Assembly (NCBI RefSeq): GCF_003387475.1
Contig: NZ_QUNO01000001.1
Coordinates: forward strand, 868,001-932,000
Direction: 5' to 3'
Source: Kutzneria buriramensis
GTDB lineage: Bacteria; Actinomycetota; Actinomycetes; Mycobacteriales; Pseudonocardiaceae
Length of the DNA stretch: 64,000 nucleotides
Each line of letters opens with the position of its first letter. Positions within the stretch are counted from its first letter, which is position 1. Positions 11,199 through 38,222 of this stretch are shown one piece after another. A program made the position numbers and the translations under genes. The notes under the pieces were generated by a model. The model was not told the origin of the DNA, searched no databases, and saw nothing but the letters and a program-made list of their open reading frames with translations.

Positions 11199-12827
11199 AT
11201 GGACGCGGTCACCTCGGTACCCCAGCCGTACAACGAGCCGGTTCGCTCCTACGCCCCCGGCAGCGCCGAACGCGAGTCGCTGCACCGGCGCGTCGCCGAG
11301 CTCGAAGGCAACAAGCACGAGCTGACCATGACGATCGGCGGCCGCCGGCGAATGGCCGGCGGCGCGCCGATCGACGTGGTGCAGCCGCACGATCACGCCC
11401 ACGTGCTGGGCGTGACGGCACAGGCCAGCAAGGACGACGTCGCCGACGCCGTGCAGGCGGCCAAGGACGCCGCGCCGGCCTGGCGCGAGCTCCCGTTCGA
11501 CGAACGCGCGGCGGTGCTGCTGCGCGCCGCCGACCTGCTCGCCGGACCGTGGCGCGACACGCTCAACGCCGCGACGATCCTCGGCCAGTCGAAGTCCGTG
11601 CAGCAGGCGGAGATCGACTCGGCCTGCGAGCTGATCGACTTCTTCCGGTTCAACGCCGCCTTCGCCCGTGAGCTGATCGCCGAGCAGCCGGCGTCGAGTC
11701 CGGGCGTCTGGAACCGGTTCGACCACCGGCCGCTGGACGGCTTCGTGGTGGCGATCACCCCGTTCAACTTCACCGCGATCGGCGGCAACCTGCCCACCGC
11801 GCCGGCGCTGATGGGCAACACCGTGGTGTGGAAGCCGTCGCCGACGCAGCAGCTGGCGGCGCACTACACCATGCAGCTGCTGGAGGCGGCCGGGCTGCCG
11901 CCGGGCGTGATCAACATGGTCACCGGCGACGGCGCCGCGGTGAGCGAGGTGGCGCTGGCCGACCGGGACTTCGCCGGCCTGCACTTCACCGGCTCCACCG
12001 CCACCTTCAAGCGGCTGTGGCGCACCATGGCCGACCACCTCGACCACTACTGGTCGTACCCGCGGATCGTGGGGGAGACCGGCGGCAAGGACTTCGTGGT
12101 CGCGCATCCGTCGGCGGACCCGGACGCGCTGGTCACCGGCCTGATCCGGGGCGCCTTCGAGTACCAGGGCCAGAAGTGCTCGGCGGCGTCGCGGGCGTAC
12201 ATCGCGCGGTCGCTGTGGGAGGGCGGGGTACGCGAGCAACTCGCCGACGTGGCAAGGAGTCTCAGCTACGGCGACGTCACCGACTTCTCCCACTTCGGCG
12301 GCGCGGTGATCGATTCACGGGCGTTCGCCAAACACAGCGAGCTGTTCGAGCGGGTGCGCAACGAGCGACTGGTGGACATCCTCGTCGGCGGCGTCGCCGA
12401 CGACCGTGTCGGCTACTTCGTGCAGCCGACCGTGCTGGTCGGCGAGGACCCACGGCACGACGTGTTCACCACCGAGTACTTCGGGCCGATCCTGTCCGTG
12501 CACGTGTACGACGACGGGGGCTACGGCGACGTGCTGGATCTTGTCGACACCTCCACCCCGTACGCGCTGACCGGCGCGGTGTTCGCCACCGACCGGGCCG
12601 CGATCGAGCAGGCGCACCGGGCGCTGCGGTTCTCGGCCGGCAACTTCTACGTCAACGACAAGCCGACCGGCGCGGTGGTCGGGCAGCAGCCGTTCGGCGG
12701 CAGCCGCTCGTCGGGGACCAACGACAAGGCGGGGTCGATCCTGAACCTGACCCGGTGGAGCAGCCCCCGCTCGGTGAAGGAGACCCTCGTCCCGCCGACG
12801 AACCACGGCTATCCGCACATGGGCTGA
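11199..12827 (+). CDS. pruA: L-glutamate gamma-semialdehyde dehydrogenase (P5C dehydrogenase)
   Basis: A 542-residue aldehyde dehydrogenase oxidising glutamate-5-semialdehyde (from proline via P5C) to glutamate with NAD+. The catalytic glutamate lies in GETGGKDF (near residue 291) and the catalytic cysteine in GQKCSAASR (near 326). The N-terminus VTSVPQPYNEPVRSYAPG is typical of the monofunctional actinobacterial/mammalian-type PruA. No proline dehydrogenase gene lies beside it in this window. Start ATG 11199, 7 nt after the DUF6912 stop, so probably in the same transcript. It converges on the lipoprotein gene 10 nt away. Confidence 0.95.
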   Translation: MDAVTSVPQPYNEPVRSYAPGSAERESLHRRVAELEGNKHELTMTIGGRRRMAGGAPIDVVQPHDHAHVLGVTAQASKDDVADAVQAAKDAAPAWRELPFDERAAVLLRAADLLAGPWRDTLNAATILGQSKSVQQAEIDSACELIDFFRFNAAFARELIAEQPASSPGVWNRFDHRPLDGFVVAITPFNFTAIGGNLPTAPALMGNTVVWKPSPTQQLAAHYTMQLLEAAGLPPGVINMVTGDGAAVSEVALADRDFAGLHFTGSTATFKRLWRTMADHLDHYWSYPRIVGETGGKDFVVAHPSADPDALVTGLIRGAFEYQGQKCSAASRAYIARSLWEGGVREQLADVARSLSYGDVTDFSHFGGAVIDSRAFAKHSELFERVRNERLVDILVGGVADDRVGYFVQPTVLVGEDPRHDVFTTEYFGPILSVHVYDDGGYGDVLDLVDTSTPYALTGAVFATDRAAIEQAHRALRFSAGNFYVNDKPTGAVVGQQPFGGSRSSGTNDKAGSILNLTRWSSPRSVKETLVPPTNHGYPHMG

Positions 12828-12837
12828 ACGCAGGGAG

Positions 12838-13662
12838 TCAGCCGCCGGCCGGCGGCGGGGACAGCTGGCTGTCGGGGGGCACCGGGACGTCCACCGGCTG
12901 TCCCCAGTCGGAGTAGCTGCGGCTGACGGTCAACGTCCCGGTGGTGGCGGGCACGTCGAGCCTGGCCTCGGACCGCAGCGGCACGTTGCCGGCGCCGACC
13001 CACAGCTCCTCGACCATGCCGCCGAGCTTGGCCTCCAACAATGTCGTGTCCTTCAACGGCCCGTCGGGCAGCGTCTTGGCCATGGCGGCGAGATCGGTCC
13101 TGAGCGAATAGTGCCGCGCCGGCACGACCCCCGCGGGCTGGATGTCCGAGCCGGTGACGGCAGTCGACGCAGGATCCAGCGGTGCGGCGAAAGGCGCCAA
13201 GGTGGCCTGCTTCAACGACGCGAACACCGGCGCGAAGCCCTGGGAGAAGGCGTCGCTGCCGCCGTCGGTCGCCCGCACCCACGGCTTGTCGGGCGGCAGC
13301 TTCTGGTCCGCCGGGAGTCGAACGTAGACGGCGGTCGGCGTGAGCACGAACGACAGCGTGGTGGTGTCCGGCGACTTGGTCGTCATCGTCGCCGTCATCC
13401 ACAAACCCTTGTCGTCACGGCGAAACGCGCCGGTCACCGACGTCACGGTGTGCGCGGCGAGCAGCTCGGTAGTGGAGTCCACAGTGAACTTCGCGGAGCC
13501 CTGGCCGGACAGCTTCGCGGACACCGCCTTGGCCAGGTCCGGCAGCGCCACCTGGGCGGGTGGCGCGATCGCCGGGTCGACCGCGGCGGATCCGTCGAGG
13601 CCGGACGAGCAAGCCGACAGCCCGAACAGGGCCACGGCCGCCACAACGATTCTGGCGATCAC
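12838..13662 (-). CDS. LppX/LprAFG-like lipoprotein
   Basis: 274 residues with a signal peptide and lipobox (VVAAVALFGLSAC, Cys about residue 18), so an exported, lipid-anchored protein. The rest resembles the LppX_LprAFG family: repeated beta strands such as TLSFVLTPTAVYVRLPA and a C-terminal TGTLTVSRSYSDWGQPVDV. Mycobacterial relatives bind lipids or triacylglycerol and pass them to the cell envelope. Start GTG 13662 overlaps the upstream methyltransferase stop (GTGA), so it is the last gene of the aroA-rsgA-methyltransferase operon. Family assignment is by pattern; function is inferred. Confidence 0.78.
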   Translation of the reverse strand: MIARIVVAAVALFGLSACSSGLDGSAAVDPAIAPPAQVALPDLAKAVSAKLSGQGSAKFTVDSTTELLAAHTVTSVTGAFRRDDKGLWMTATMTTKSPDTTTLSFVLTPTAVYVRLPADQKLPPDKPWVRATDGGSDAFSQGFAPVFASLKQATLAPFAAPLDPASTAVTGSDIQPAGVVPARHYSLRTDLAAMAKTLPDGPLKDTTLLEAKLGGMVEELWVGAGNVPLRSEARLDVPATTGTLTVSRSYSDWGQPVDVPVPPDSQLSPPPAGG

Positions 13663-14465
13663 TTCTGAACCACGTAGACCAGTTCGTTCCCGAACTCCAG
13701 CTCCTCGACCTGCCACTGCCGGCCCTCCGCGTGCGCGGTGAAGCCGCTGGAGTACGTCCGGTACATGCCCTTGGAGCGCTGCCCGAGCGACTTGGTCGGG
13801 AAGCTGACCACGACCACCGGCGAGTTGATCGCGTCGATCAGGCTCCAGCCGAGCTCCTTCTGCTGCGTCTCGATGCACGGCACGGCCTTGAGCAGCAGCG
13901 TCACGTCCGCTGGCGCGGGATCCGGGCCGGTCAGCAGGTCGTGCACGGCGACCTCGTGCGAGACGCCCAGCACGGTCAGCGCCTCGTCGAGGAACGCCAT
14001 CAGCCGGCTGTCGATGTCCGACGCGCGGTACAGCACGTCCTCGCCGACCGGCATCCACTCCACCGTCAGCGGATTCATGCCGCACGCGAGGTCGGCGATC
14101 ACCTTCGGCGGCTCCGGCAGCCGCTCGAAGATCGCCGCGTAGAACTCGTCCAGGATGGGCAGGCGCTCCTTGGTGGACGCGTGCGAGGACATCGTCCGCG
14201 ACAGGACGTCCCGCCGCTCCTCCCGGCTGCCGGCGTCGCGCAGCAGGCCGAGCATCTTCTCGTACCGGGGCGTGCTCGGCAGGTACGCGCCGAAGATCTC
14301 GTGCAGGCCACGCTTGGTGCGCTTCACCGCGTCGTTCACGTCGCCGCGCGCCGCGGTCAGGGACGCGGTCGCGATGCGGCGCACGGTGTCGTCGGCGACG
14401 CTCTGATAGCGGGCGCTGTCGCGCACCGCCACCAGCACCTTCGCCAGCTTCTCGTCTTCCACCAC
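13659..14465 (-). CDS. 16S rRNA (guanine-1405-N7)-methyltransferase family protein
   Basis: 268 residues matching the FmrO/Arm family that makes m7G1405 in 16S rRNA and blocks 4,6-linked 2-deoxystreptamine aminoglycosides such as kanamycin and gentamicin. Seen: the helical N-terminal domain, SSHASTKERLPILDEFY (about 92), the SAM motif IADLACGMNPLTVEWMP (about 120), the acidic YRASDID (about 145) and the catalytic-side LLLKAVPCIETQQKELGW (about 187). Start is a GTG sharing its G with the rsgA stop (TAGTG); the stop overlaps the lipoprotein GTG. It thus sits inside a housekeeping operon rather than an antibiotic cluster. It could be intrinsic resistance or a housekeeping rRNA methylase. Confidence 0.85.
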   Translation of the reverse strand: MVEDEKLAKVLVAVRDSARYQSVADDTVRRIATASLTAARGDVNDAVKRTKRGLHEIFGAYLPSTPRYEKMLGLLRDAGSREERRDVLSRTMSSHASTKERLPILDEFYAAIFERLPEPPKVIADLACGMNPLTVEWMPVGEDVLYRASDIDSRLMAFLDEALTVLGVSHEVAVHDLLTGPDPAPADVTLLLKAVPCIETQQKELGWSLIDAINSPVVVVSFPTKSLGQRSKGMYRTYSSGFTAHAEGRQWQVEELEFGNELVYVVQK

Positions 14466-15472
14466 TACTCCTCGGCCAGCCCCGCCCGCGAGGCCAGCAG
14501 CCTACGCAGCGAGCGCAGCCTGCCCTCGGTCGCCAGCCCCTCGGCGACCACCGTGTCCAACATGCAGTCCGGGTCCTCGGGCGGTCCCAGGTGCCCGCAT
14601 CCCGACGGGCACTCCTCGGCGGCCTCGGCCATGCCGGGGAACGCCGCCACGATGTCGTCCGGCGTGATGTGGGCCAGGCCGAACGAGCGGATGCCGGGGG
14701 TGTCCACCACCCAGCCGCCGGCCGGCAGCGGGAACGCCACCGCCGAGGTCGACGTGTGCCGGCCCTTGCCGACCCCGCTGACCTCGCCGGTGGCCCGGTC
14801 GGCCGCCGGCACGAGCTTGTTCACCAGGGTGGACTTGCCGACGCCGGAATGGCCGATCAGCGCGGACACCCGACCGTCAAGACGCTCGGCCAGGGTGTTG
14901 GGTTCCCGATCCGATCGGGTGACCACGACCGGCAGGTCGAGCTCGGCGTAGACGCCCAGGATCTCGTCCGGCGAGGCCAGGTCGGACTTGGTCAGGCAGA
15001 GCACCGGCGTCAGGCCGCCGGCGTATGCGGCGACCAGGCACCGGTCGATGAAACCGGTTCGCGGCGGCGGGTCGGCCAGCGCCGAGACGATGATCAGCTG
15101 CTCGGCGTTGGCCACCACCACCCGTTCGAACGGGTCGGTGTCGTCGGCGGTGCGCCGCAGCACGCTGCTGCGGGGCTGGCGGCGCACGATCCGGGCCAGC
15201 GTGTCCACCGCGCCGGAGGTGTCGCCGACCAGGTCGATCTCGTCGCCGATGACCACCGAGGTGCGGCCCATCTCGCGGGCCCGCATGGCGATCACCTTAC
15301 GTTCGGGGTCGCCGTCCAGCGCGATCGTCCAGCGGCCGCGGTCGACGCCGACCACCATGCCCGACTCGGCGTCGGCGTGGTCCGGCCGCTTCTTGCTGCG
15401 GGGGCGGGAGCCCTTGCCCGGCCGGACCTTGACGTCGGACTCGTCGAGCCGGCGCCAGTCGCCGCGCGTCAC
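14465..15472 (-). CDS. rsgA: Ribosome small-subunit-dependent GTPase A
   Basis: 335-residue circularly permuted GTPase that checks late 30S maturation. Order of motifs: N-terminal OB-fold, G4 LCLTKSDL (about 164), G1 [10 protein letters not shown] (about 203), G3 VVDTPG (about 244), then a zinc-binding domain with [10 protein letters not shown] and DCML. Start GTG 15472 lies inside the aroA stop codon region (GTGTGACG), overlapping aroA by 4 nt. The ATG-lacking upstream extension in this frame runs antisense-like through aroA and is not coding. aroA-rsgA adjacency is conserved in actinobacteria (Rv3227-Rv3228). Confidence 0.94.
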
Positions 15473-16743
15473 ACCCGCTCCGCCAGCTGGAGCATCGCCG
15501 CCCACATGCCGGGGAAGTCCGGGATCGTCTTGGTGGTGGTCTCGATGTCGTCCACGGAGACGCCGGGGACCCGCAGGCCGATGATCGCGCCGGCGGTGGC
15601 CATCCGGTGGTCGTGGTAGGCGTGCCAGAGGCCGCCGGTCGGCTGCGACGGCCGGATGATCAGGCCGTCCTCGGTCTCGTCGGCGTCGCCGCCGATGCCG
15701 CGGATCTCCGTGGTCAGCGCGGCGAGCCGGTCGGTCTCGTGGCCGCGGATGTGCGCGACGCCGCGGATGTGGGTGGGGCTGTCGGCCAGCACCGCCATCG
15801 CCGCCACGGTCGGCGTCAGCTCGGAGGCGTCGTGCAAGTCGATGTCGATGCCGTTCAGGCGCTCGGGGCCGGCGACGGTCAGGCCGTTGTCCGACAGCGA
15901 CACGTGGCAGCCCATGCGTTCGAGGACGTCCCGCATCTCGTCGCCGGGCTGGGTGGTGACCAGCGGCCAGTCCGGCACGGTGATCGACCCACCGGTGACC
16001 GCGCCGGCGGCCAGGAACGCCGCCGCGTTGGACAGGTCCGGCTCGATCCGCCAGTCCTTCGCCCGGATGGCGCCCGGCGCGACGTGCCAGCGGTTGGGCT
16101 GGCTGTCGTCCACCTCGACGCCGACGGCCCGCAGCATCTCGATGGTCATCTCGATGTGCGGCAGCGACGGCACCGGCTTGCCGTCGTGCAGCACGGTGAC
16201 GCCCTGCTCGTAGCGGGCGCCGGAGAGCAGCAGCGCCGACACGAACTGGGACGAACCGGACGCGTCGATCGTGACCTCGCCGCCGCGCACCCCGCCGTGG
16301 CCGTGCAGCGTGAACGGCAGCGAGTCGCCGTCGACCGCCACGCCGAGCGAGCGCAGCGCGTCCAGGACGGTGTTCATCGGGCGGACCCGGGCCTGCTCGT
16401 CGCCGTCGAAGCGCACGTCCCCGTCGGCCAGCGCCGCGGCCGGCGGCACGAAGCGCATCACCGTGCCGGCCAGGCCGCAGTCCAGGTCGGCGTCGCCGCG
16501 CAGCGGGCCGGGGGTGACCTCCCAGGAGCCCTGGTGGCCGTCGGCGATGCGCACTCCCAGCGAGCGCAGCGCCGCCGCCATCAGTTGGGTGTCGCGGCTG
16601 CGGAGGGGAAGGTGGACGGTGGAGGAGCCGTCGGCGAGGGCGGCCAGCAACAGGGCACGATTGGTGATCGACTTGGAACCGGGCACGGGGACGGTCGCGC
16701 GCACGGCTTCGGTGACGGACGGAGTGGGCCACGGCTGCGTCAT
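15469..16743 (-). CDS. aroA: 3-phosphoshikimate 1-carboxyvinyltransferase (EPSP synthase)
   Basis: 424-residue EPSP synthase, which condenses shikimate-3-phosphate with PEP in the shikimate pathway. Signatures: [20 protein letters not shown] near residue 21, and the second-half motif [19 protein letters not shown] near 333 (RxKExDR type). The protein has the usual two inverse alpha/beta domains by length. Start ATG 16743. First gene of the aroA-rsgA-rRNA methyltransferase-lipoprotein operon, divergent from the SRAP gene across 83 nt. Confidence 0.96.
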
Positions 16744-29182: not shown

Positions 29183-29221
29183 GTGATCAGCCTAGAGCCT
29201 GCGCCGGCTCCGGGCCCTCGG

Positions 29222-29620
29222 TCAGACCGGGCGGCGGAACGTGAACCAGTCACGTCGCTCCCGCGCGGGCTTGGGCTCCGGTTTTGGCTTGGGCTCGGGC
29301 TCCGGCGAACTCATGACGACGGAGCCGCTGATACTGCCGGCCTGGAAGAGGGTGCCGGTCGGCGTGCCCAGTGCGACATTGAGGACGCCGTGCCCGCGGC
29401 CGCGGGCGGCGACCTCCCACACCGCGGCCAGCTTGGCGGCGAACGCCTCGTCGTCGGCGCAGGCCTGCGCCAGCTGCCCGGCCACCTGCTCGATCCCCGC
29501 CGCGGTGACGTCCACCTTGGCCCCGACGACCACCCGCAGCTGCTGCCACGACCCCTCGTCGCCGATCCGCTCGTCGCCCACCAGCGCGGCGGCGATCGTC
29601 AGCAGCGTCGTCTCGTTCAT
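29222..29620 (-). CDS. Small protein with amyloid/RHIM-like motif
   Basis: 132 residues. An alpha-helical N-terminal domain (about 1-75, with WQQLRVVVGAKVDVTAAGIEQ) is followed by LFQAGSISGSVVMS (about 90-103). The pattern Q-x-G-x-I/V-x-G-x-V resembles bacterial amyloid signalling or RHIM-like motifs that often sit on effectors or NLR-type STAND proteins. A Pro/Glu/Lys repeat linker and the end RRDWFTFRRPV follow. ATG 29620 with GAGGGGG upstream. It lies just downstream of the AfsR-type STAND regulator on the same strand. Motif-to-function link is inference. Confidence 0.6.
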   Translation of the reverse strand: MNETTLLTIAAALVGDERIGDEGSWQQLRVVVGAKVDVTAAGIEQVAGQLAQACADDEAFAAKLAAVWEVAARGRGHGVLNVALGTPTGTLFQAGSISGSVVMSSPEPEPKPKPEPKPARERRDWFTFRRPV

Positions 29621-29726
29621 CGTGTGACCCCCTCGGTCTTGGTTCACACGGTATGTGACGGACGGCATGAGATCGAAGCGCCGCCGATTGGGGTGAGTAG
29701 GGCGCTTCCGGGGAGCGTGAAGCTCC

Positions 29727-32540
29727 TCAGTTGGGGCCGTGGGGCGCAGGGGCATGGTCGAGGGCATCCAGTTGTCGTTGGACGCGGTCGGCGCCTGCGA
29801 AGCGGTGCTGGGCCCGGTAGAGGTCGAGGGCTTGGTGCCAGGCATGGCGGCCCTGGTCGTGTTGGTCGAGGGCGGCGTGGGCTTGGCCGAGCCGGTCGAG
29901 GACGTCGGCTTCGTTGAAGGTGTCGCCAATCTGGCCGCACAGGGCGAGCGACTGCTCGTAGTAGCCGAGGGCTTGAGTGTGCTGGCCGGTGTGGTGGGCG
30001 ATGTAGCCCAGGGTGTCCAACGCGTTCGACACGCCCTCGCGGTAGTGGAGACGGCGGCACAGGGCCAGGGCGGCCTGGCAGTGGGCGTGGGCCTGGTCAT
30101 ACTGGCCGAGCCGAGCCTCGTGCCAGCCCACCTGGTTGAGCGCGTCTGCTTCGCGCACCGGTTGGCCGAGGGGCCGGTAGAGGTTCAGGGCGTGGGTGGC
30201 GTGGCCCAGGGCCCGCTGGTCGTCCCCCTGCTGTTCCCAGACGAACGCGAGAACCCGGTGTGTATGGGCTTGTTCGCGGGTGTCCCCGCGGTCTCCAGCA
30301 GCGGCGAGTGCCTGCTGAAGGTGGTCGAGGGCCTCTGCGGGTCGACCCAGGCGGGCATGGGCGTCACCGAGGTACCGATGCGCCATGGCTGTGGTGGCGT
30401 GATCGTCGAGGCGCGCGGCCGTGGCCAGGGCTGCTTCCCAGACGGTGCGGTAGTCGTGCAGGCGGCCCTGCCTACTGTGGAACGTGGTCAACGTCCAGGC
30501 TAGGTGGACGACCGTGCGGTGCCAGCCTTCGCGCATCACCAGCCGTTGGGTGGCCAGCAGGTTGGGGTTTTCAGCGCTGAACCAGGCCAACGCCGTGGAC
30601 TTGTCCGCCAGGAGGTGGGGACGGCTGCTGGCGGCGGGTGGGCCGCTCTGGAGCGGTTCCCGATGCGGAGCGAGGAGCCGGTCGGCGGCGTGGGCGGTGT
30701 GCAGGTAGTAGTCGACCAGCCGGTGCAGCGCCGCGTCCCGGTCAGGAAGCGGCAGGTGCTGGCGGGCGTGCGCGGCGGCGTGCAGGCGCACGAGGTCGTG
30801 CATGCGGTAACGGCCGGGGAGGTGCTGCTGGATCAGGGAGACCCGTTCCAGGGCGCGCAGCGCCTCACTCACCTCGGCTGCGGGCAGGTCGGTGAGGGAC
30901 TCCGCGGCGGGCAGGGCGATGTCCGGGCCGGGTGCCAGGCCGAGCAACATGAACACCTGGGCCTGGTTCGGTTCAATGGCGGCTACTGACCAGGACAGGG
31001 CGGCGTGGACGCTGGCGGCCGGGTCGCCGGTGTCCAGCGCTCCCAGGCGGGTGGCCGTGTCCCGCAGTTCGGCGGCCAGCGCGGCCAGAAGCGTGTCAGG
31101 TCGCAACGCGGCGCGGGCGGCGACCACGCCCAGGGCCAAGGGCAGGCCTGCGCAACGGTCCACCAGCTCGTCGGCCGCGTCGGGTTCGGCGGCCAGACGC
31201 TCAGGCCCGAGGCGGCCGGCCAGCAGCTCGCGGGCCTCGGCGTCGTCGAGCGTGTCCAGCGCGATCGGCCGGGCGTTGTGCGCGGCGACCAGACCCGCCA
31301 GCCGGTCCCGGCTGGTCACCACGACTGCGCAGGCGGGGCTGCCGGGCAGCAGCGGTTCCACCTGGGCGGTGTCGCGGGCGTTGTCCAGCACGATCAGCAT
31401 CCGCCGGCCGGCGACCAGGCTGCGGTAGAGCGCGGTCTGGGCGTGCAGGCCGGCCGGGATGGCGGCGGGCTGGACGTCGAGGGCGTCGAGGAATCCGCAC
31501 ACCGCCTCCCCGGGCTCCATCGGCTTCCCGGCGGGGGCGTAACCGAGCAGGTCGACGAACAGCTGTCCGTCGGGGAACCTGTCCAGGTTCTGGTAGGCCC
31601 ACTGCAGGGCCAGCCACGTCTTGCCGACACCGCCCCCGCCGCCGATCGCCGACACGACCACGGTGGCGCCCTGGGCGGTCTGCTGGTCCACGGCCTTGGT
31701 CAACGCGGTCAGCTCGCGGTCCCGGCCGACGAACACTCCCGGTGGCGCGGGCAGCTGCCTCGGGGTCACTGCCTGGACTCGCGGTTCGGATACGGGAGCC
31801 GCCAGTGTGTGGTCGGCGGTCAGGATCTGTCGATGCAGGTGCTGCAGCGGCGGGCTGGGATCCGCGCCGAGATCCTCGGACAGGCGCAGTCGGATCCGTT
31901 CGTAGTGCTTCAAGGCGTCGGCCTGCCGGCCACTGCGGTACAGGGCCACCATGAACTGGCTCGCCAGGCGCTCGTCCAGTGGATGCTCACCGGCTTGGGC
32001 GGCGAGCATGCCGAGCAGTTCGGCGTGCTCGCCGCGTCGCAGGCGCAGATCGGTCGCGTCCTGTTCGGCTGTGAGGCGCTCCTGGAGAAGAGTGGCGCGC
32101 ATCGAGGTTACCCAGGGACTGTCCAGACCGCTGAGGGCTTCTCCTCGCCAGAGTCGCAGTGCCTGTTCGAAGAGGTCCAGTGCCTGCTCACCGTTCTCGG
32201 TGGATCGCGCCTGGTCGACCAGCGTGCGGAACTGGTACAGGTCCACCGCCTGCTGGTCGACGGTGAGCAGGTACCCGCCGAGGTGTCGCGCGATCGTCAC
32301 CTCCGGAGCGCCGGCCAGGGCCTGGCGCAGCCGAGAGACATAGCTGGACAGCGTCCCCCGCACTCGGTGCGGGAGTGCGCCGCTCCACACACGTTCGGCG
32401 AACTGGTCGATGGACACCGGGTAGTTGGCATCGACCAACAAGACGGCCAGCACGCATCGCTGCCGCGCGGGTCCGACGTCGACAGCGTGGCCGTCGAGAT
32501 CGGCACGGACGTCTCCGAGCAGGCTGAACCGAACCACCAC
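29727..32540 (-). CDS. AfsR/SARP-type regulator with NB-ARC and TPR domains
   Basis: About 937 residues. Order: OmpR-like winged helix (FSLLGDVRADLDG start, about 1-95), bacterial transcriptional activation domain (about 96-245), NB-ARC STAND ATPase with P-loop AIGGGGGVGKTWLALQWA (about 295) and Walker B RMLIVLDNARD (about 380), winged-helix arm, then TPR repeats to the C-terminus (about 650-920). Such proteins activate secondary-metabolite or development genes after ligand/ATP switching. Start is uncertain: GTG 32540 has GGAAG 7 nt upstream, but ATGs at 32582 to 32621 are in frame. No biosynthetic cluster is visible in the window. Confidence 0.88.
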   Translation of the reverse strand: MVVRFSLLGDVRADLDGHAVDVGPARQRCVLAVLLVDANYPVSIDQFAERVWSGALPHRVRGTLSSYVSRLRQALAGAPEVTIARHLGGYLLTVDQQAVDLYQFRTLVDQARSTENGEQALDLFEQALRLWRGEALSGLDSPWVTSMRATLLQERLTAEQDATDLRLRRGEHAELLGMLAAQAGEHPLDERLASQFMVALYRSGRQADALKHYERIRLRLSEDLGADPSPPLQHLHRQILTADHTLAAPVSEPRVQAVTPRQLPAPPGVFVGRDRELTALTKAVDQQTAQGATVVVSAIGGGGGVGKTWLALQWAYQNLDRFPDGQLFVDLLGYAPAGKPMEPGEAVCGFLDALDVQPAAIPAGLHAQTALYRSLVAGRRMLIVLDNARDTAQVEPLLPGSPACAVVVTSRDRLAGLVAAHNARPIALDTLDDAEARELLAGRLGPERLAAEPDAADELVDRCAGLPLALGVVAARAALRPDTLLAALAAELRDTATRLGALDTGDPAASVHAALSWSVAAIEPNQAQVFMLLGLAPGPDIALPAAESLTDLPAAEVSEALRALERVSLIQQHLPGRYRMHDLVRLHAAAHARQHLPLPDRDAALHRLVDYYLHTAHAADRLLAPHREPLQSGPPAASSRPHLLADKSTALAWFSAENPNLLATQRLVMREGWHRTVVHLAWTLTTFHSRQGRLHDYRTVWEAALATAARLDDHATTAMAHRYLGDAHARLGRPAEALDHLQQALAAAGDRGDTREQAHTHRVLAFVWEQQGDDQRALGHATHALNLYRPLGQPVREADALNQVGWHEARLGQYDQAHAHCQAALALCRRLHYREGVSNALDTLGYIAHHTGQHTQALGYYEQSLALCGQIGDTFNEADVLDRLGQAHAALDQHDQGRHAWHQALDLYRAQHRFAGADRVQRQLDALDHAPAPHGPN

Positions 32541-33275
32541 TCCGCCACTTCCAGCCGGTGTCACTGGGTTCTCGCACAGCATCTGACCAGGGGATGGCAT
32601 CGACATGGCAACGATGCACACGATCGGTCGAGCACAGTTCTACATGCGGCGGTCCTGCATTGGTGCAAGGGGGGACCAAGGGGGGAGGACCAGTGCAGGA
32701 TCGCCGCGCCCGCGATCCACGTCGTCTCGGACGAGCTGCGGGTTCCTGGCCGGGCAACCTTTCTGTGCACCATCGGCGTCGTCGGCGCGCCCGTTCGACT
32801 TCCGCCGAGGGGTGTGCCATGCCTTGCACGGTGGATGGTGCGACGGTTGAGTCCGGTCCCGCCGGCGATCCGCTGCGGGGCCAAGATCTCTGTCGGCGAC
32901 CTCCGCCACCAGAACGGACCAGCAGCAGGGTGCCGGGTTGCCGGTCGGGACAACTCTGATTTGGGGCTTGGACCAGATCGCGACGAGACCGAGGGGAACC
33001 GGTGGGAAACGCCGCTCGTTGATCTGGATGCCCGGTTCCCTTGGAACTTGGGCGTTTCCCTTGTGAGGGCTTGTGCCGAGCCCTTCGGCCTCGCCAGACG
33101 CAGCGTAGGCCGCGTGTCGACAAGGGAGGGTGTCCATGGCCCCATCGCGCTCGGACGAGAGATGGCGGACTGTCCGATCTGCCCTGGAAAGCTGGTCCCG
33201 GACGGTCCGCCTCTGCTTGATCCTCCTCGCCATCGGCGTTCCAAGCCACGCCGTTGCCTGGCTGATCATGCGTTG

Positions 33276-33333
33276 AGACAGCTCCATCTCGTACGGCTGC
33301 CCGAGCGTGCCACTCGGGCAGCCGTACCTGTCT
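33276..33333. repeat. Long hairpin (terminator or structured RNA)
   Basis: 15-bp perfect stem (33291-33305 with 33313-33327, 7-nt loop) extended after an internal bulge by AGACAG/CTGTCT (33276-33281 with 33328-33333). There is no adjacent gene that it obviously ends. Confidence 0.65.
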
Positions 33334-33360
33334 AACGAAGGACAGTTCCCGACGACGCAG

Positions 33361-33380
33361 TTGGTTGAGCGATCAACCAA
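33361..33380. promoter_or_regulatory. Perfect 8+8 palindrome
   Basis: TTGGTTGA-GCGA-TCAACCAA, perfect arms with a 4-nt centre, 27 nt after the long hairpin. Looks like a dimeric-regulator operator or recombinase arm site; no gene is attached. Confidence 0.45.
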
Positions 33381-33532
33381 GATGGCTCACGTCGCGACGA
33401 GATGTGCGATCGGATCATCGTGACCGGGTCGGCGCCGCGTCGCGGATTGCTCCCCCGATGCGGACGCCCAGGACCCCAGCTGCTCCGCCAGATACGGCTG
33501 GACCCGGCTGGGTCTTGGGCCGTGGGAGATCA

Positions 33533-33646
33533 CCAGGGGACAAGACGGCGCCGACCGGCGGAACGCGTCCCCGCTGGTCGGCGCCGTCAGGCCCGGGTGG
33601 ATCAGGCCTGCTTGGTCTCCCAGAAGATCTGAGTCAATCTCCGGAC
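33533..33646. repeat. Left copy of the sodN 3' end plus terminator (candidate attL)
   Basis: Bases 33602-33630 are identical (29 bp) to the last codons and stop of sodN at 37737-37765. Left of the core, a diverged copy of the sodN terminator is present (stem 33544-33556 with 33576-33588), aligning to 37674-37724 with a shared loop segment ACGCGTC. Right of the core a further 15 nt match sodN coding sequence except for a 1-nt indel, so this copy cannot encode the gene. Confidence 0.75.
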
Positions 33647-33858
33647 CTAGGGAGACTGTTACGCCAGATGGACCAGCGATGGCGTGTCATCCGCTTAGAT
33701 GTTGAACTTGCAACGCTCCGAAGGCCGCCGGTAACTCAAGATGGCGCATACCGCTGTCCGACCACGTTGCGCATCAGTTGAAGCCGGTGCGTGCACCGGT
33801 CGAACCACGACAGCAGCAGCACGGCGCGCTGTGTTCACACTTTCTTCTCTTCATCAAG

Positions 33859-33880
33859 GCGGCCCCCTTGCGGGGGCCGC
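33859..33880. terminator. GC-rich hairpin
   Basis: GCGGCCCCC (33859-33867), TTGC loop, GGGGGCCGC (33872-33880). Strong terminator-like structure within the gene-poor stretch of the putative element. Confidence 0.55.
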
Positions 33881-34021
33881 TCGGCCGCTCGGTCGGGGCC
33901 CGGCTCCGCCACCCACCCGGCGTCCGTCGGCCCCCGCGAGCCGCGTTGAGAGGAAGAGATGTCCTCGCCGGACGGGCAGGCCAACAGGATGGTGGGAAGG
34001 GGGGCGCGCTGCGGTTCGGGA

Positions 34022-34174
34022 GGGGCCTAGCTCCGCGCCATCCCGTCGACCTCCCCGAGGGCAATCACGCGTGTCAAGGGGGCCGTTCCAGCGTCCGCCG
34101 CCGGCCTGGGCGGAGGTGCCCCCTTGACACGCATGATCGGGCAGAGCCAGGTCGACGGGATGGCGCGAGGCCCC
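34022..34174. repeat. Long imperfect inverted repeat (candidate origin or transfer site)
   Basis: Three matched blocks in nested order: 34022-34028/34168-34174 (7 bp), 34034-34052/34149-34167 (19 bp, perfect) and 34069-34083/34118-34132 (15 bp, perfect), with a GC-rich centre. A 153-nt cruciform of this type upstream of an element's regulatory gene is typical of single-strand origins or oriT-like sites in actinomycete integrative elements; this role is inference. Confidence 0.65.
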
Positions 34175-34363
34175 ACCCTAGGTACGAGTCACCTTCCAAG
34201 ATCGTCGGTTGTGTTGTCGGCGCGCTATTGGCGCTGGTCAGTGGGGTCAGTCACGGTCACTTAGGACTCGCGCTGAGCGCATCTCAGCGTGGTATCGACG
34301 CACATCCGCTGCCTTCCTAGCCCGAGCACCTCTCTTCGACGGTCAGGCCGGATGCCCGGTTGG

Positions 34364-34392
34364 TTGTGTTCTACCTAGGGGCTAGGTAGAGT
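34364..34392 (+). promoter_or_regulatory. Promoter and palindromic operator of the PadR gene
   Basis: TTGTGT (34364-34369), 17-nt spacer, TAGAGT (34387-34392). CTACCTAG-GGG-CTAGGTAG (34371-34389) is a perfect palindrome overlapping the spacer and -10. The transcription start would fall about at ATG 34399, implying a leaderless, autorepressed mRNA. Confidence 0.65.
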
Positions 34393-34398
34393 AAGCCC

Positions 34399-34746
34399 AT
34401 GCCCCGACCACCGCGTGAACCCCGGATGACGCAACCCACGCAAGCGGTGCTGCGCGCTCTGGTCGCCGAACCCACCCATGAGTTCTACGGGTTGGAGTTG
34501 GGTGCGATAGCAGGCTTGCCAAGCGGCACTGTCCACCCCATCCTGGCCCGTCTGGAAGCTTGTGGCTGGCTGGTCAGTCACTGGGAAGATCTCGACCCGC
34601 ACACGGAGGGACGACCCCGGCGCCGGTATTACCAGCTCACACCTGACGGTGCTGTGCGTGCTCGCGCCGCTCTAGCTCGTGCCAAGGCTGCCACAGCCAA
34701 GCTTCAGCACCGGCTCAGGCCTGATTTGGCGGGGGGAGCGGTGTGA
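34399..34746 (+). CDS. PadR-family winged-helix transcriptional regulator
   Basis: 115 residues. The winged helix-turn-helix is clear: TQAVLRALVAEPTHEFYGLEL, GLPSGTVHPILARLEACGWL (recognition helix) and GRPRRRYYQLTPDGAVRARAAL (wing and C-terminal helix). PadR proteins are usually autoregulated repressors. Start ATG 34399 has no Shine-Dalgarno, consistent with leaderless translation; a palindrome covers its promoter. Codon use is less GC-biased than in housekeeping neighbours. GTGA overlap couples it to the coiled-coil protein. It is probably the regulator of the putative element. Confidence 0.85.
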   Translation: MPRPPREPRMTQPTQAVLRALVAEPTHEFYGLELGAIAGLPSGTVHPILARLEACGWLVSHWEDLDPHTEGRPRRRYYQLTPDGAVRARAALARAKAATAKLQHRLRPDLAGGAV

Positions 34747-35633
34747 GCGAGTACCGCTTCAACTCCGACGGGCGACCTGATCTCGACACCGTCTGCCTTT
34801 ACGCCCGCAGTGTTGTCTCCAAGATCCGTGGAGCTCAACATTATAGCTCCGCCGCCAGCGCTATCGCTACAGCTGAACTCGATGCTGCAGCCGCAGCCTT
34901 CGCGCAAGCCAGGGCCCACGCTAGAGCTTGTACTGAAGCGTACGAAGATACAGTACGCAGCCTGGAACTCATCGAAGTCCGCGCACGTGAGCTCGCCCAA
35001 GTTGAGACACGTACACGCGCTAAAGCCCAGGCCCATGAGATCCATGTCCGCGAGCTTTATCGAGCTCGCGCCGAAGGTGAGGTCCGCGCCCGCGAGCTGG
35101 CTGAAGCTCGCGCCGAAGCTGATGCCCGCGCTAAAGCCTGTGCCTACGCCGAGGACCGCGCCCGCGAGGTAGCCATTGCCCGCAGCATTGAACACTCCCT
35201 GATCGACGCACATAACATGTCCATCGCGCTGTCCCAAGCCCTCGCTGTCGTCCCGGTCAATCCCACTTACCTCGCCCGCGCCGATCTCCTGACCCATGAG
35301 CTCGCTAAGCCGGATGTTGGCTCTCTCGCCCGCGCCTACGACATCGCAGTCAACCTCTTCGAGTCTTTGAATGCACTCAGAGCGACAGAGGTTGTTGCCG
35401 TCCCAGCCCCACCAGTAGCGCGTTCGGCCGTACGTCTGATTGAAACCGCGGTTCGTGTGCTACCCACTGCGGACCGTTCGCGCTACAGCGAGGAATTCCG
35501 CGCCGAGCTGGCCGAATTGGCTGGCCGACGCAAGCAGGTGATCTATGCGCTGCGTCTAGTCAGTCATGCGTACTCGCTGCGCCGCAGCCTAACCGATCCC
35601 GCTCACCGACGTCGAGCCGCTAGCGGAGGGTGA
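34743..35633 (+). CDS. Ala/Arg/Glu-rich coiled-coil protein coupled to PadR gene
   Basis: 296 residues. The middle (about 40-150) is a long charged helix with repeated RARELAE/RAEADARAKA-like units, a probable coiled coil. The C-terminal part (about 215-290) carries AVRLIETAVRVLPTADRSRY and EEFRAELAELAGRRKQVIYA, a pattern that I recall in PadR-linked actinomycete proteins with short helices preceding membrane or permease domains; here no membrane helix follows. Unknown function. GTG 34743 overlaps the PadR stop. Codons such as GCT and CTC/CTT are mixed, unlike the strongly GC-ending flanking genes. Confidence 0.7.
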   Translation: MSEYRFNSDGRPDLDTVCLYARSVVSKIRGAQHYSSAASAIATAELDAAAAAFAQARAHARACTEAYEDTVRSLELIEVRARELAQVETRTRAKAQAHEIHVRELYRARAEGEVRARELAEARAEADARAKACAYAEDRAREVAIARSIEHSLIDAHNMSIALSQALAVVPVNPTYLARADLLTHELAKPDVGSLARAYDIAVNLFESLNALRATEVVAVPAPPVARSAVRLIETAVRVLPTADRSRYSEEFRAELAELAGRRKQVIYALRLVSHAYSLRRSLTDPAHRRRAASGG

Positions 35634-35639
35634 CCAACA

Positions 35640-36191
35640 ATGCCCACTGCTGTTCCCGCAGGCAAGCCAGAACGGGACCCCACCACAGTGATCGCCCTGA
35701 TCTATCGCGTTGTGGACGAACCCCGGAGGGTCCTGGCACTGCTGGTCATCGTCCTTCCAGTCCTGGCTGCTGCCACCCAGTTACTGGTCCCAACCGCGAC
35801 CCTGTTCGGAATCCCCACACCCGCACTGTGGTGGTCAGCGACTGGTTCTCTGGGCGGCGGCTGGCTGCTGCGGACTGGACTGCGACGCCTGAACAGTCGG
35901 TCCGATCGCATGGACGGACTCACAGTTGGTGGTCACAGCCAGCATCGCCCTCAGTCGGACGCGGAACGCGTACGGAGCGTCTCACGGCGTACGTCGCCCG
36001 GTCTAGTTGCACTGCAACCGCCTCTGCCTGTCTGCGATGCTGCGGAGGGTGGTCTGGGTGGCGGGGCCGAGACCCCTCCCGTGGATGTCAACGCCAGATC
36101 ATCACCCGCGCTTACCCCGCGTATTCAACACCAAACGACCACGGATGCCGGTCCACGCTGGACGACGTACGACCGCCAGATTACCTTGTGA
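35640..36191 (+). CDS. Small two-helix membrane protein
   Basis: 183 residues. Two hydrophobic segments (VLALLVIVLPVLAAATQLLV, about 31-50, and ALWWSATGSLGGGWLLRTG, about 62-80) lie in the N-terminal 90 residues; the rest is low-complexity and polar, possibly frame-drifted or simply non-conserved. ATG 35640 with GGAGGG upstream; 6 nt after the coiled-coil gene, so third in the PadR operon. It may supply the membrane part that the preceding protein lacks. Confidence 0.6.
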   Translation: MPTAVPAGKPERDPTTVIALIYRVVDEPRRVLALLVIVLPVLAAATQLLVPTATLFGIPTPALWWSATGSLGGGWLLRTGLRRLNSRSDRMDGLTVGGHSQHRPQSDAERVRSVSRRTSPGLVALQPPLPVCDAAEGGLGGGAETPPVDVNARSSPALTPRIQHQTTTDAGPRWTTYDRQITL

Positions 36192-36228
36192 CACAAGGAA
36201 AAGCGCCGCAACGGCAGACAACGGCAAA

Positions 36229-36272
36229 TGTGGATCACGAATCCGTAGGTTCTGGGTTCGAGCCCCAAGCGA
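36229..36272 (+). pseudogene. tRNA 3'-half-like fragment
   Basis: The sequence has a tRNA T-arm (CTGGG-TTCGAGC-CCCAA with one C-A mismatch at the stem base), an acceptor-like GCGAGCC and, upstream, an anticodon-arm-like GTGGA-TCACGAA-TCCGT. No matching 5' acceptor strand (GGCTCGC) lies in the preceding 80 nt, so it is not a functional tRNA. Such fragments are common scars of elements that integrate at tRNA 3' ends. The anticodon would be ACG (Arg) if intact. Confidence 0.45.
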
Positions 36273-36333
36273 GCCGAAGATCATCTCCATGCCTTTCCGT
36301 CATCAAACGATGCTAAGGCTGAACGGGTGAATG

Positions 36334-36345
36334 TGTCATATGACA
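36334..36345. promoter_or_regulatory. Perfect palindrome TGTCATATGACA
   Basis: A 12-bp perfect palindrome 38 nt before the zinc-ribbon gene, with a second TGACAT half-site at about 36371-36376. It looks like a GntR- or TetR-type operator; the regulator is unknown. Confidence 0.45.
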
Positions 36346-36382
36346 TAGTTGGAGATGTGTTGGTGCGGTATGACATCTGGTC

Positions 36383-37132
36383 ATGGTGGCAGCTCGGAGG
36401 CGTGCGAAGCCTAGGGATCAGTACGACTGTCCAAGGTGTGGTGGGCGTCATCGGTATGGCTCTCAGGCGGGTCGGGAGTGTGGTAGGACCCGTCGGTCAA
36501 CGATTTATGTGCCGCCTGTGCCGACCCTTCAAACAGTCCGAATCAAACAGCCCCGTCAGTCGCAGTCTGTTGGGAAATCGCCCACGGTGGCGTCGTCGCA
36601 ACGTTCTAGTGGATCGCCCCGGCCCGGCGGGCACCTGTCGCAACGCCAGGTAAGGCGCGAACAGGCGAAGCGAACGCTCGCGTTGAGTGGCCTAGACGTC
36701 AATAATGAGTTGTTGACTTATGTATTCAACCGAGACGGGTTCTACGCCGGCTTGGCCGGGCGTCTTCTTGATCATGTGCCACTCTGGCATCGCGGCCGTA
36801 AACGTGGCCACTGGTTGTGTCTGCGCCTCAACGATCTAGCTAAGAGTGTGGATCCTGGCACCTATGCGGCGCAAATTCGGAAGTCGACGCGAGCCGGTCT
36901 GATCGCGTTGGGCGCGCCCCGATTTATGGCGAACGTGCTTGGCGCTGGTGCTGGACTCGGATTGAAGATTGCACTGGGGCACACGCCTATTGCCCACTTG
37001 ACGAACACGTTGCGCGTCCTGATACCTCTCGTTTGTCCCAACCTGGGTCAGTGCCCCGCTCAAAAGGATGTGGTAAAGACGCTTGCGACACCGTTTCTGG
37101 CGGAGCAGTTGAAGAAGACCGCTTCAGCGTAA
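36383..37132 (+). CDS. Zinc-ribbon protein of unknown function
   Basis: 249 residues. The N-terminus carries CPRCGGRH (about 16-23) and a further Cys in RECGRTRR (about 33), a single treble-clef or zinc-ribbon-like site. A Ser/Pro-rich linker leads to a helical domain (RREQAKRTLALSGLDVNNEL onward) and a hydrophobic Gly/Ala stretch (FMANVLGAGAGLGLKIALG). This could bind nucleic acid, for example as a replication or excision helper of the element, but no known family is recognised. Start ATG 36383 lacks a clear ribosome site. Base composition is clearly lower in GC than the flanks. Confidence 0.55.
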   Translation: MVAARRRAKPRDQYDCPRCGGRHRYGSQAGRECGRTRRSTIYVPPVPTLQTVRIKQPRQSQSVGKSPTVASSQRSSGSPRPGGHLSQRQVRREQAKRTLALSGLDVNNELLTYVFNRDGFYAGLAGRLLDHVPLWHRGRKRGHWLCLRLNDLAKSVDPGTYAAQIRKSTRAGLIALGAPRFMANVLGAGAGLGLKIALGHTPIAHLTNTLRVLIPLVCPNLGQCPAQKDVVKTLATPFLAEQLKKTASA

Positions 37133-37321
37133 AAGCTCGGTGCACGAAGATCGGCGGCGTTGAGTGCGTCTGCAACTTGACGCCGCTGGAGTCACGCCTA
37201 GTTGGCGGGCAGTCTATGGGCTTCGTCGATCAGTCCGGATGTGCTGCCATGGCAGGCTTCTCTGTCGGACGGATGGCCGTCACGTACCGTCCAGAGCGGA
37301 CCGGGACTGAAGGGGGCAGCC

Positions 37322-37624
37322 ATGAGCTACTGGCGTGAGGTGTCTACGAGGCTCGTTGCGAACGCGCAAGTGATCGCACAAGCGCTTCAGCCCGACGCGC
37401 CGATGCCCAGTCCCGACGAAGCCGCCGAGTTCCTGCGTGGCGTTCATCACCTTGTCGGCGAGATGAAGCGCGCCGGCATTGGGATCGGGAGGGCGTATGG
37501 TTCCACGCTGCCCGACGGCGTACTCGCTGGGTTCCGGTCGGTGATCCAACACATGCAGGCCGTTTCGCTCACTCCGGTTGCGGATGCTCTGGGAGGCCAT
37601 CACCGGAGGCAGACTGATCGGTAG
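37322..37624 (+). CDS. Short hypothetical protein (100 aa)
   Basis: Starts ATG 37322 with GAAGGGGG upstream and reads MSYWREVSTRLVANAQVI, with helical segments PSPDEAAEFLRGVHHLVGEM and an amphipathic C-terminus. No signal peptide or known motif. It is the last gene before the sodN terminator and the right-hand repeat copy, hence the last gene inside the putative element. Confidence 0.5.
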   Translation: MSYWREVSTRLVANAQVIAQALQPDAPMPSPDEAAEFLRGVHHLVGEMKRAGIGIGRAYGSTLPDGVLAGFRSVIQHMQAVSLTPVADALGGHHRRQTDR

Positions 37625-37655
37625 ATGATCTCCGCTGGGCCGTCTGTGGGCCGTC

Positions 37656-37780
37656 GGAGGTCACCAAGAGACGAAAAACGACGCTGACCAACGAAACGCG
37701 TCTTCGCTGGTCAGCGTCGTTTTTAGGCCGTCGACCTCAGGCCTGCTTGGTCTCCCAGAAGATCTTGTCGATCTCGGCGA
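37656..37780. repeat. Right copy of the direct repeat (sodN 3' end, candidate attR)
   Basis: The 29-bp core 37737-37765 equals 33602-33630; homology extends over the terminator to about 37656 and slightly into sodN. Here the gene is intact, as expected when an element integrates at a gene's 3' end and restores it. Confidence 0.75.
37674..37724. terminator. Strong terminator downstream of sodN
   Basis: 17-bp perfect stem (37674-37690 with 37708-37724), 17-nt loop, A5 and T5 at the ends, so usable in both directions. A diverged version occurs at 33544-33588 beside the duplicated sodN 3' end. Confidence 0.88.
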
Positions 37781-38144
37781 TCAGGTCCAGCAGCTCCTGG
37801 CCCTTGGCCGGGTCCATGGAGCCCTTGGCGCCGGAGGCGCCGGCCGCCTTGGTCGCCTTGTTGAACAGGTCGTGCAGCTGCGGGTACTTCTCGAAGTGCG
37901 GGGCCTTGAAGTAGTCCGTCCACAGCACCCAGAGGTGGTGCTTGACGAGCTCGGCGCGCTGCTCCTTGATCTGGATCGCGCGGGTCCGGAACTCGGGGTC
38001 CTCGTTGCCCTGGTACTTCTCCTGGATCGCCTTGACGGACTCGGCCTCGATCCGGGCCTGGGCCGGGTCGTAGACGCCGCACGGAAGGTCGCAGTGCGCC
38101 GTCGCCTCGAGGCTCGGGCCGAGGATGCGCGACAGCAGTCGCAT
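37737..38144 (-). CDS. sodN: Nickel superoxide dismutase
   Basis: 135-residue Ni-SOD precursor. A 16-residue propeptide (MRLLSRILGPSLEATA) precedes the mature N-terminus HCDLPCGVYDP, the Ni hook, with His1, Cys2 and Cys6 ligands; the rest is the four-helix bundle ending IFWETKQA. It converts superoxide to peroxide and oxygen in the cytoplasm. ATG 38144 chosen with GGGAGGA upstream; a TTG 12 nt earlier is less likely. Divergent from its maturation protease gene sodX across 78 nt. The 3' end is duplicated at 33602-33630. Confidence 0.96.
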   Translation of the reverse strand: MRLLSRILGPSLEATAHCDLPCGVYDPAQARIEAESVKAIQEKYQGNEDPEFRTRAIQIKEQRAELVKHHLWVLWTDYFKAPHFEKYPQLHDLFNKATKAAGASGAKGSMDPAKGQELLDLIAEIDKIFWETKQA

Positions 38145-38222
38145 GGGTCCTCCCAAACAGTGAATGCTCCGACGTGCGGAACCCTACTCCGGACGGCCGG
38201 AGCGGGCAGGCGGAGGTGATCG

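Follow-up and report, generated by a model that had tools for sequence, protein, structure and literature searches.

Overall, our comparison of genomes indicated that positions 33602-37736 of a 64,000-nucleotide stretch of Kutzneria buriramensis DNA (RefSeq assembly GCF_003387475.1, contig NZ_QUNO01000001.1, positions 868,001 to 932,000; hereafter the window) are very probably what remains of an actinomycete integrative and conjugative element (AICE). The clade to which this element belonged would encode a tyrosine integrase that recombines the attachment site of the element (attP) with the last codons of sodN, the gene of nickel superoxide dismutase, and the 3′ end of sodN is the attachment site (attB) of the element. 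Fuller elements with an integrase were found at the same spot in relatives, which points to the end of sodN as a recurrent landing site for such elements in related bacteria. Throughout, G numbers denote the genomes compared, G000 being the 12-Mb genome of the window itself, and L numbers denote extracted loci.

The 3′ end of sodN as an attachment site

A sequence-only reading of the window had claimed a 29-bp perfect direct repeat consisting of the final codons and the stop codon of sodN. Both copies, hereafter the cores, were recovered at exactly the same coordinates (Table 1). Exact 29-bp pairs are expected by chance at about 5e-10 in 5.5 kb of the same base composition, and the right-hand copy does end an intact nickel superoxide dismutase gene. 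Beyond the distal core the window reads GAGTCAATCTCCGG, which is similar to the integrase-side flank in other elements, for example TTGTCAATCT.

Uninserted sites were present in four congeners (G001, G002, G005 and G006), where the sequence on either side is collinear with the window and sodN has a single end, with no insert behind it, as the proposed search for empty sites in relatives had anticipated. To the left, synteny with these four genomes resumes at 29.2 kb, and 29.2-33.5 kb is absent there too. The 4.3 kb at 29216-33540, with a BTAD/NB-ARC/TPR regulator, is thus missing at this place in all four and is possibly also part of an old island; the sequence of G006 in the interval left of sodN differs from that of G001 and G002.

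The core pattern (23 nt, at most two mismatches) occurred in 214 of 390 genomes of the family. Among the matches listed, at least eight genomes had same-strand core pairs on one contig, 5-20 kb apart (loci L068 and L089-L095), so that counts of occupied sodN sites in the family are minimum values. Six loci combined both cores, a tyrosine integrase, Rep, an FtsK-type gene and sodN: L089-L093, found through core pairs, and L126, found through a scan with integrases. The integrase gene adjoins the distal core in four of L089-L093 and lies about 2.4 kb off in L090. By Pfam, Phage_integrase was assigned in L089, L091 and L126, RepSA in L089, L090, L091 and L092 (E 4e-102 or better), and FtsK_SpoIIIE in L089, L090, L092 and L093, with L091 below the cut-off. 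L089 additionally encodes NUDIX and HD domains, and its cargo carries HEPN, GmrSD_N and methylase domains; these HEPN, GmrSD-type and methylase genes, at 11949-15676 of this Actinophytocola locus, are a probable defence or restriction module. A series of decaying elements occupies the same site, namely L094, L068 (integrase gene in two pieces), L140 (2.6 kb, integrase remnants), L139 and L134, and L095 has two cores and no sodN.

The scan with five query integrases covered 84,980 species and returned ten loci, all with at least 54% identity to the L089 integrase. Looking for the core beside integrase genes, which the earlier reading had also proposed, was borne out in every case: the core lay near the integrase gene in 10 of 10 loci, at distances from 35 bases to 2.4 kb. 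The hosts are Actinophytocola algeriensis, A. oryzae, Kibdelosporangium aridum, Labedaea rhizosphaerae, three Pseudonocardia, Umezawaea beigongshangensis, Lentzea albida and a record titled Rhodococcus rhodnii NRRL B-16535 (L131, JOAA01000002.1), which is probably misnamed and grouped in the genus of K. aridum. Adjacency to sodN was seen for six of the ten, directly in L126 and L132 (the latter with its integrase in two pieces) and through L089, L090, L092 and L093 for L123, L124, L125 and L131; L127-L130 showed no sodN within the DNA examined. A tree of 13 integrases, unrooted and with two very long branches, makes a single sodN integrase clade plausible at most.

A short duplication of the tail of sodN, with no mobile element involved, would also yield a 29-bp repeat. 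We give this explanation next to no weight, and the finding of the core near integrases in all ten loci contradicts it; the shared arm described below, the uninserted sites and the elements in other genera likewise speak against it. Phage tyrosine integrases also use the 3′ ends of genes, and a prophage or phage-satellite remnant at the same gene end would resemble the window in this respect. However, the elements at this site carry RepSA and FtsK-type genes, and no phage structural family was found among ten L089 proteins in a Pfam scan (PHROGs was not searched), which leaves a phage origin very improbable. The claim that the window shows integration at the 3′ end of a protein gene with restoration of that gene thus gained support from the uninserted sites and from the cores near integrases.

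Arm, hairpins and possible repeated use of the site

The sodN-side arm of most elements consists of a direct repeat, GGCCGTCTnnrGGCCGT, followed by a hairpin. Among loci L068 and L089-L094, the direct repeat was present on the sodN side in five of seven (L091 has a variant and L094 lacks it) and on the distal side in none of the seven. Searched as one pattern, arm plus core occurred at 25 places in 23 of the 390 family genomes (0 for the reversed pattern used as a control), and when 298 genomes sampled from the order were searched, the arm pattern turned up in two, G000 and G138, both from the family of the window. Fifteen of the 25 places lie directly at sodN and ten elsewhere. Elements with integrase, replication and transfer genes were found at four of the armed sodN loci (G098, G100, G259 and G263), and both cores are kept at three (G000, G035 and G395). 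The pairing of the arm hairpin is preserved over 22 aligned arms, with changes on both sides in six pairs.

Over 70 nt and ten loci, the hairpin regions are more alike between loci on the sodN side (mean identity 72.7%) than on the distal side (60.2%), as would be expected if the element brings the hairpin on the sodN side. As the sodN-side end of the window insert carries this arm, the last codons and the terminator of sodN were probably supplied by the element. Two observations tell against an element origin of the right hairpin of the window, which is deduced from these comparisons. First, the same hairpin type stands behind the sodN of G006, which has no insert (97% identity over 70 nt; L078, 6955). 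Second, the two hairpin regions of a single locus, 68.9% identical on average, reach 81% in G100, 79% in G395 and 93% in L126. Repeated visits to the site could explain this likeness, which nevertheless blurs the distinction between element hairpin and host hairpin. We read the pattern, with L126, as repeated use of the site, and the terminator region of the G006 sodN as a possible scar that a lost element left; gene conversion between sodN ends may also have produced it.

The earlier reading had described diverged terminators beside both cores, one of the host and one incoming. Both hairpins are present in the window and their stem bases differ, but the T-run required by our terminator scan exists only at the right one. 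Over 70 nt, the left hairpin is 79-83% identical to those of G002, G005 and G001, and 71-74% identical to the right copy and to that of G006. The proposed pairing of a host terminator with an incoming one proved too simple, given an arm-like sequence past the left hairpin, the match in G006 and the 79-93% likeness at G100, G395 and L126 (3 of 10 loci), and we regard it as weakened. In a search of 33.4-37.9 kb against Rfam, the right hairpin gave one sub-threshold match to a miRNA family, which was judged to be due to chance.

Because the left core, too, is followed by arm-like sequence, two successive integrations are suggested. In such an accretion, which is compatible with the AICE remnant proposed here, the left core would connect the present remnant, at its distal end, with the arm of an earlier sodN element whose other end, toward 29.2 kb, has been lost; we consider this somewhat better than an even bet. 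The arm-like sequence aligned to the right arm with a local score of 21, which 0 of 2000 dinucleotide shuffles reached and which compares with 6-9 in five congeners. The lack of synteny over 29.2-33.5 kb agrees with accretion as well, and so does the Pseudonocardia locus L126, where the likeness of the hairpin regions at the two cores (1404 and 11283) suggests previous use of the site. However, no third core copy was found near 29.2 kb, the left hairpin matches the type present at three congener loci without an insert, and BTAD regulators, such as the one at 29.7-32.6 kb, are not a hallmark of AICEs.

Content of the insert and traces of other attachment sites

The insert was claimed to have a lower GC content, which holds for most of it (about 0.58-0.65, against 0.70-0.73 farther out) but not for 33.75-34.25 kb, at 0.70, and the sequence outside the repeats at 32.0-33.5 kb is also low (0.65-0.68). 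Its features are listed in Table 1. The predicted PadR-type regulator was identified by its Pfam family, and the four further open reading frames (ORFs), noted before as genes of unknown function, have no Pfam family above the cut-off. With PADLOC, PadR had weak matches only and the remaining four proteins had no substantial ones, and we assign no defence system to the cargo. A long inverted repeat, another feature read from the sequence, has 50-nt arms that are 82% complementary.

Table 1. Features of the sodN-associated segment, in window coordinates
Feature	Position	Strand	Evidence
Arm-like sequence past left hairpin, probably left by an earlier sodN element	33507..33541		local alignment
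Hairpin left of distal core	33544..33588	minus	inverted repeat; same type as three uninserted congener loci
Core copy, distal	33602..33630	minus	direct-repeat search
Conserved 366-nt block with strong palindrome	33820..34185		DNA fold z -7.7
PadR-type regulator, cargo	34399..34746	+	PF03551 E 9.4e-9
296-aa Ala/Arg-rich, coiled-coil-like protein (by eye), cargo	34743..35633	+	no Pfam above cut-off
183-aa protein, probably membrane-bound (by eye)	35640..36191	+	no Pfam above cut-off
tRNA-Lys(UUU) 3′ fragment, putative fossil attachment site	36240..36271	+	match to G005 tRNA-Lys gene/element
249-aa protein, N-terminal zinc-ribbon-like motif (by eye), cargo	36383..37132	+	82% DNA identity to G002:C1:963804-964609
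Short ORF, about 99 aa, cargo or remnant	37325..37624	+	DNA relatives in G006, G005; no Pfam
Arm of the element, including direct repeat GGCCGTCTGTGGGCCGTC (candidate arm sites for the integrase)	37638..37673		same arm + core in family genomes
Hairpin 3′ of sodN, putative terminator, on arm thought to be element-derived	37674..37724	minus	inverted repeat + terminator scan; compensatory changes, 22 arms
Core copy, sodN side (sodN last codons + stop)	37737..37765	minus	direct-repeat search
sodN, nickel superoxide dismutase, intact; core copy inside	37737..38156	minus	PF09055 E 6.6e-47

A search of 60 relatives with the complete insert as query recovered chiefly tRNA ends and the palindromic block. 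The block is 85-93% identical in G002, G005 and G006 and 77% in G004, with extra copies in several congeners. An AICE-type HD gene accompanies it at four congener loci, with the block upstream of the gene, adjacent in two and 0.6-0.9 kb off in two. Candidate roles for the block are those of a single-strand origin, a transfer site or a regulatory site.

A relative of the 249-aa cargo gene stands away from sodN in G002 (L088, 7782-8549; 82% DNA identity). Relatives with the same genes and no link to sodN had been named as evidence against an integrated element; this was found for that one gene, which we take as exchange of cargo and not as absence of the element.

ARAGORN found no intact tRNA in the window, and the tRNA fragment noted in the insert was identified as the 3′ piece of tRNA-Lys(UUU), with 31 of 32 bases matching the tRNA-Lys gene of the congener G005. 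Together with its flank, it matches the right end of an element in G005 over 52 nt (94%), at the other end of which an intact tRNA-Lys is found; the 3′ end of the 183-aa gene in front of the fragment is also common to the two. By this comparison the fragment appears to be a fossil attachment site, and both it and the inverted repeat would belong to the history of the AICE. The fragment also matches a tRNA-Lys-like 3′ half in its own genome, at C1:208308. This half (L005, 1490-1545; near 208.3 kb) is not called by ARAGORN and lies about 0.35 kb from a called tRNA-Lys; therefore, the identity of the fragment rests on G005. The site near 208.3 kb is possibly another attachment remnant.

The converse arrangement was found in three of the ten arm places away from sodN, which lie inside elements of other specificity. 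An AICE at tRNA-Gly in G004 (46-bp repeats; integrase, rep and FtsK genes) contains a sodN arm plus core (L069, 9166), as do an AICE at tRNA-Asn in G138 (81-bp repeats; Phage_integrase, relatives of rep and FtsK; L097, 3134) and an element on contig C12 of G008 (50-bp repeats, 96%; integrase and rep; L070, 9712). A further arm place, on contig C11 of G008, adjoins a tRNA-Pro element whose other end was not found. The sodN arms and cores inside these three elements thus look like attachment sites of a past specificity.

For AICEs, the main text of PMC9513070 proposes integrase switching. We further considered whether AICEs keep sites of several specificities, sodN with tRNA-Lys, tRNA-Gly or tRNA-Asn, with the extra site, its arm and its terminator serving as a usable place for landing or excision. 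We hold this to be an unlikely proposal. If true, it would allow elements to switch or share targets and to pass cargo between sites, and the 3′ end and terminator of sodN would be replaced at every visit.

Nature of the element and its relation to known systems

We provide a putative course of events for the window. A crossover within the core would have restored the reading frame and stop codon of sodN and would have placed the terminator of the element behind the gene. A later deletion, reaching from the integrase end as far as the sequence upstream of the HD gene, would have stranded the cargo. Less surely, an earlier sodN element may have used the site before, and the ancestor of the present element may have had tRNA-Lys specificity. 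The remnant keeps both cores, the sodN-side arm, cargo and the block that elsewhere lies near AICE HD genes.

Measured against intact AICEs, the window has the direct att repeats flanking the element at a gene end. The absence of a visible integrase, remarked on before, was confirmed: a tblastn search of the window with the integrase, Rep and FtsK proteins of the sodN elements gave no match at E 1e-4, which leaves it without a detectable recombinase, replication initiator or FtsK/SpoIIIE-type transfer gene. Measured against decayed AICEs (DAICEs), its repeats are related to those of AICEs with integrase, rep and transfer genes at the same site, in other genera and not in the genus of the window; uninserted sites exist in relatives (the four congeners above); and residual AICE sequence is present in the sodN-side arm, the block shared with AICE-like loci and the tRNA-Lys attachment remnant.

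Several observations weigh against this assignment. The window element contains no AICE backbone gene, and its placement draws on the ends, the palindromic block and comparison. The block was not found in the sodN elements L089, L090, L092, L093, L094, L134 and L068, and L091 and L126-L130 contain it only in part. The cargo proteins match weakly or partially in the nine loci compared, and DNA relatives of the PadR region sit elsewhere in G004, G026 and G053. Among the 15 armed sodN loci, four (G140, G277, G287 and G032) have no second core over about 19 kb, the first three with the arm only and G032 with XRE, Nudix and HD genes; at G349, G266, G268 and G245 the contig end was reached, in G349 after pieces of an integrase gene and before any second core. 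Additionally, the rep of L093 is in two pieces and the integrase of L130 has an in-frame stop.

The sequence-only reading had left the choice between a cis-mobilizable and a decayed element. Cis-mobilizable elements (CIMEs) are flanked by att sites and lack mobility genes, which is also true of the window remnant; the difference is that any mobility of the remnant is hypothetical. Excision by the sodN integrase of another element, acting through both cores, would agree with the identity of the 29-bp cores and with the preserved sodN-side arm and its direct repeat. However, the integrase-side flank is altered from TTGTC to GAGTC, and a search of the own genome returned no close sodN-type integrase, the best match covering positions 190-402 (half of the protein) at 36-40% identity to sodN integrases. 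We therefore doubt that the remnant is still mobile with help. Of the two, decay is the likelier, the element being named here as a decayed pSAM2-type AICE; because a close sodN-type integrase is lacking in its own genome, the remnant is probably immobile unless a new sodN element arrives.

The sodN elements resemble the AICEs pSAM2, pMEA100 and pSE211, as described in the main text of PMC3218068, in having a tyrosine integrase at one att end, a RepSA-like Rep, an FtsK-type protein and an mdp(HD)-nud-xre cluster, and in integrating at the 3′ end of a gene. They differ in their site, as that text gives the 3′ ends of tRNA genes for the vast majority of AICEs with tyrosine integrases. With the Streptomyces DAICEs, in the main text of PMC9513070, the window remnant shares direct repeats around cargo without integrase or rep, uninserted sites, accretion and integrase switching. 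In that Streptomyces population 14 of 51 insertions lie in protein-coding genes; the sites named in the same text are rlmN, a glycosyltransferase gene and tRNA genes, sodN not being among them. In contrast to the DAICE examples presented there, the window remnant has no partial integrase, and elements of the kind studied here retain former attachment sites with a different specificity. AICEs, decayed AICEs, accretion and sites in protein genes are thus already described in the main texts of PMC3218068 and PMC9513070. In neither does the word "superoxide" occur, and we found no account of a sodN attachment site in the open-licence literature; supplementary site tables, which lie outside these texts, could still mention sodN.

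Taken together, a conserved metabolic gene, that of nickel superoxide dismutase, joins the attachment sites of actinobacterial conjugative elements, and the element would supply the last codons of sodN and apparently its terminator too. The integrase group, the core and the arm could serve for finding islands and for building integration vectors in Pseudonocardiaceae. The old attachment sites inside elements may offer a readable record of changes of target.

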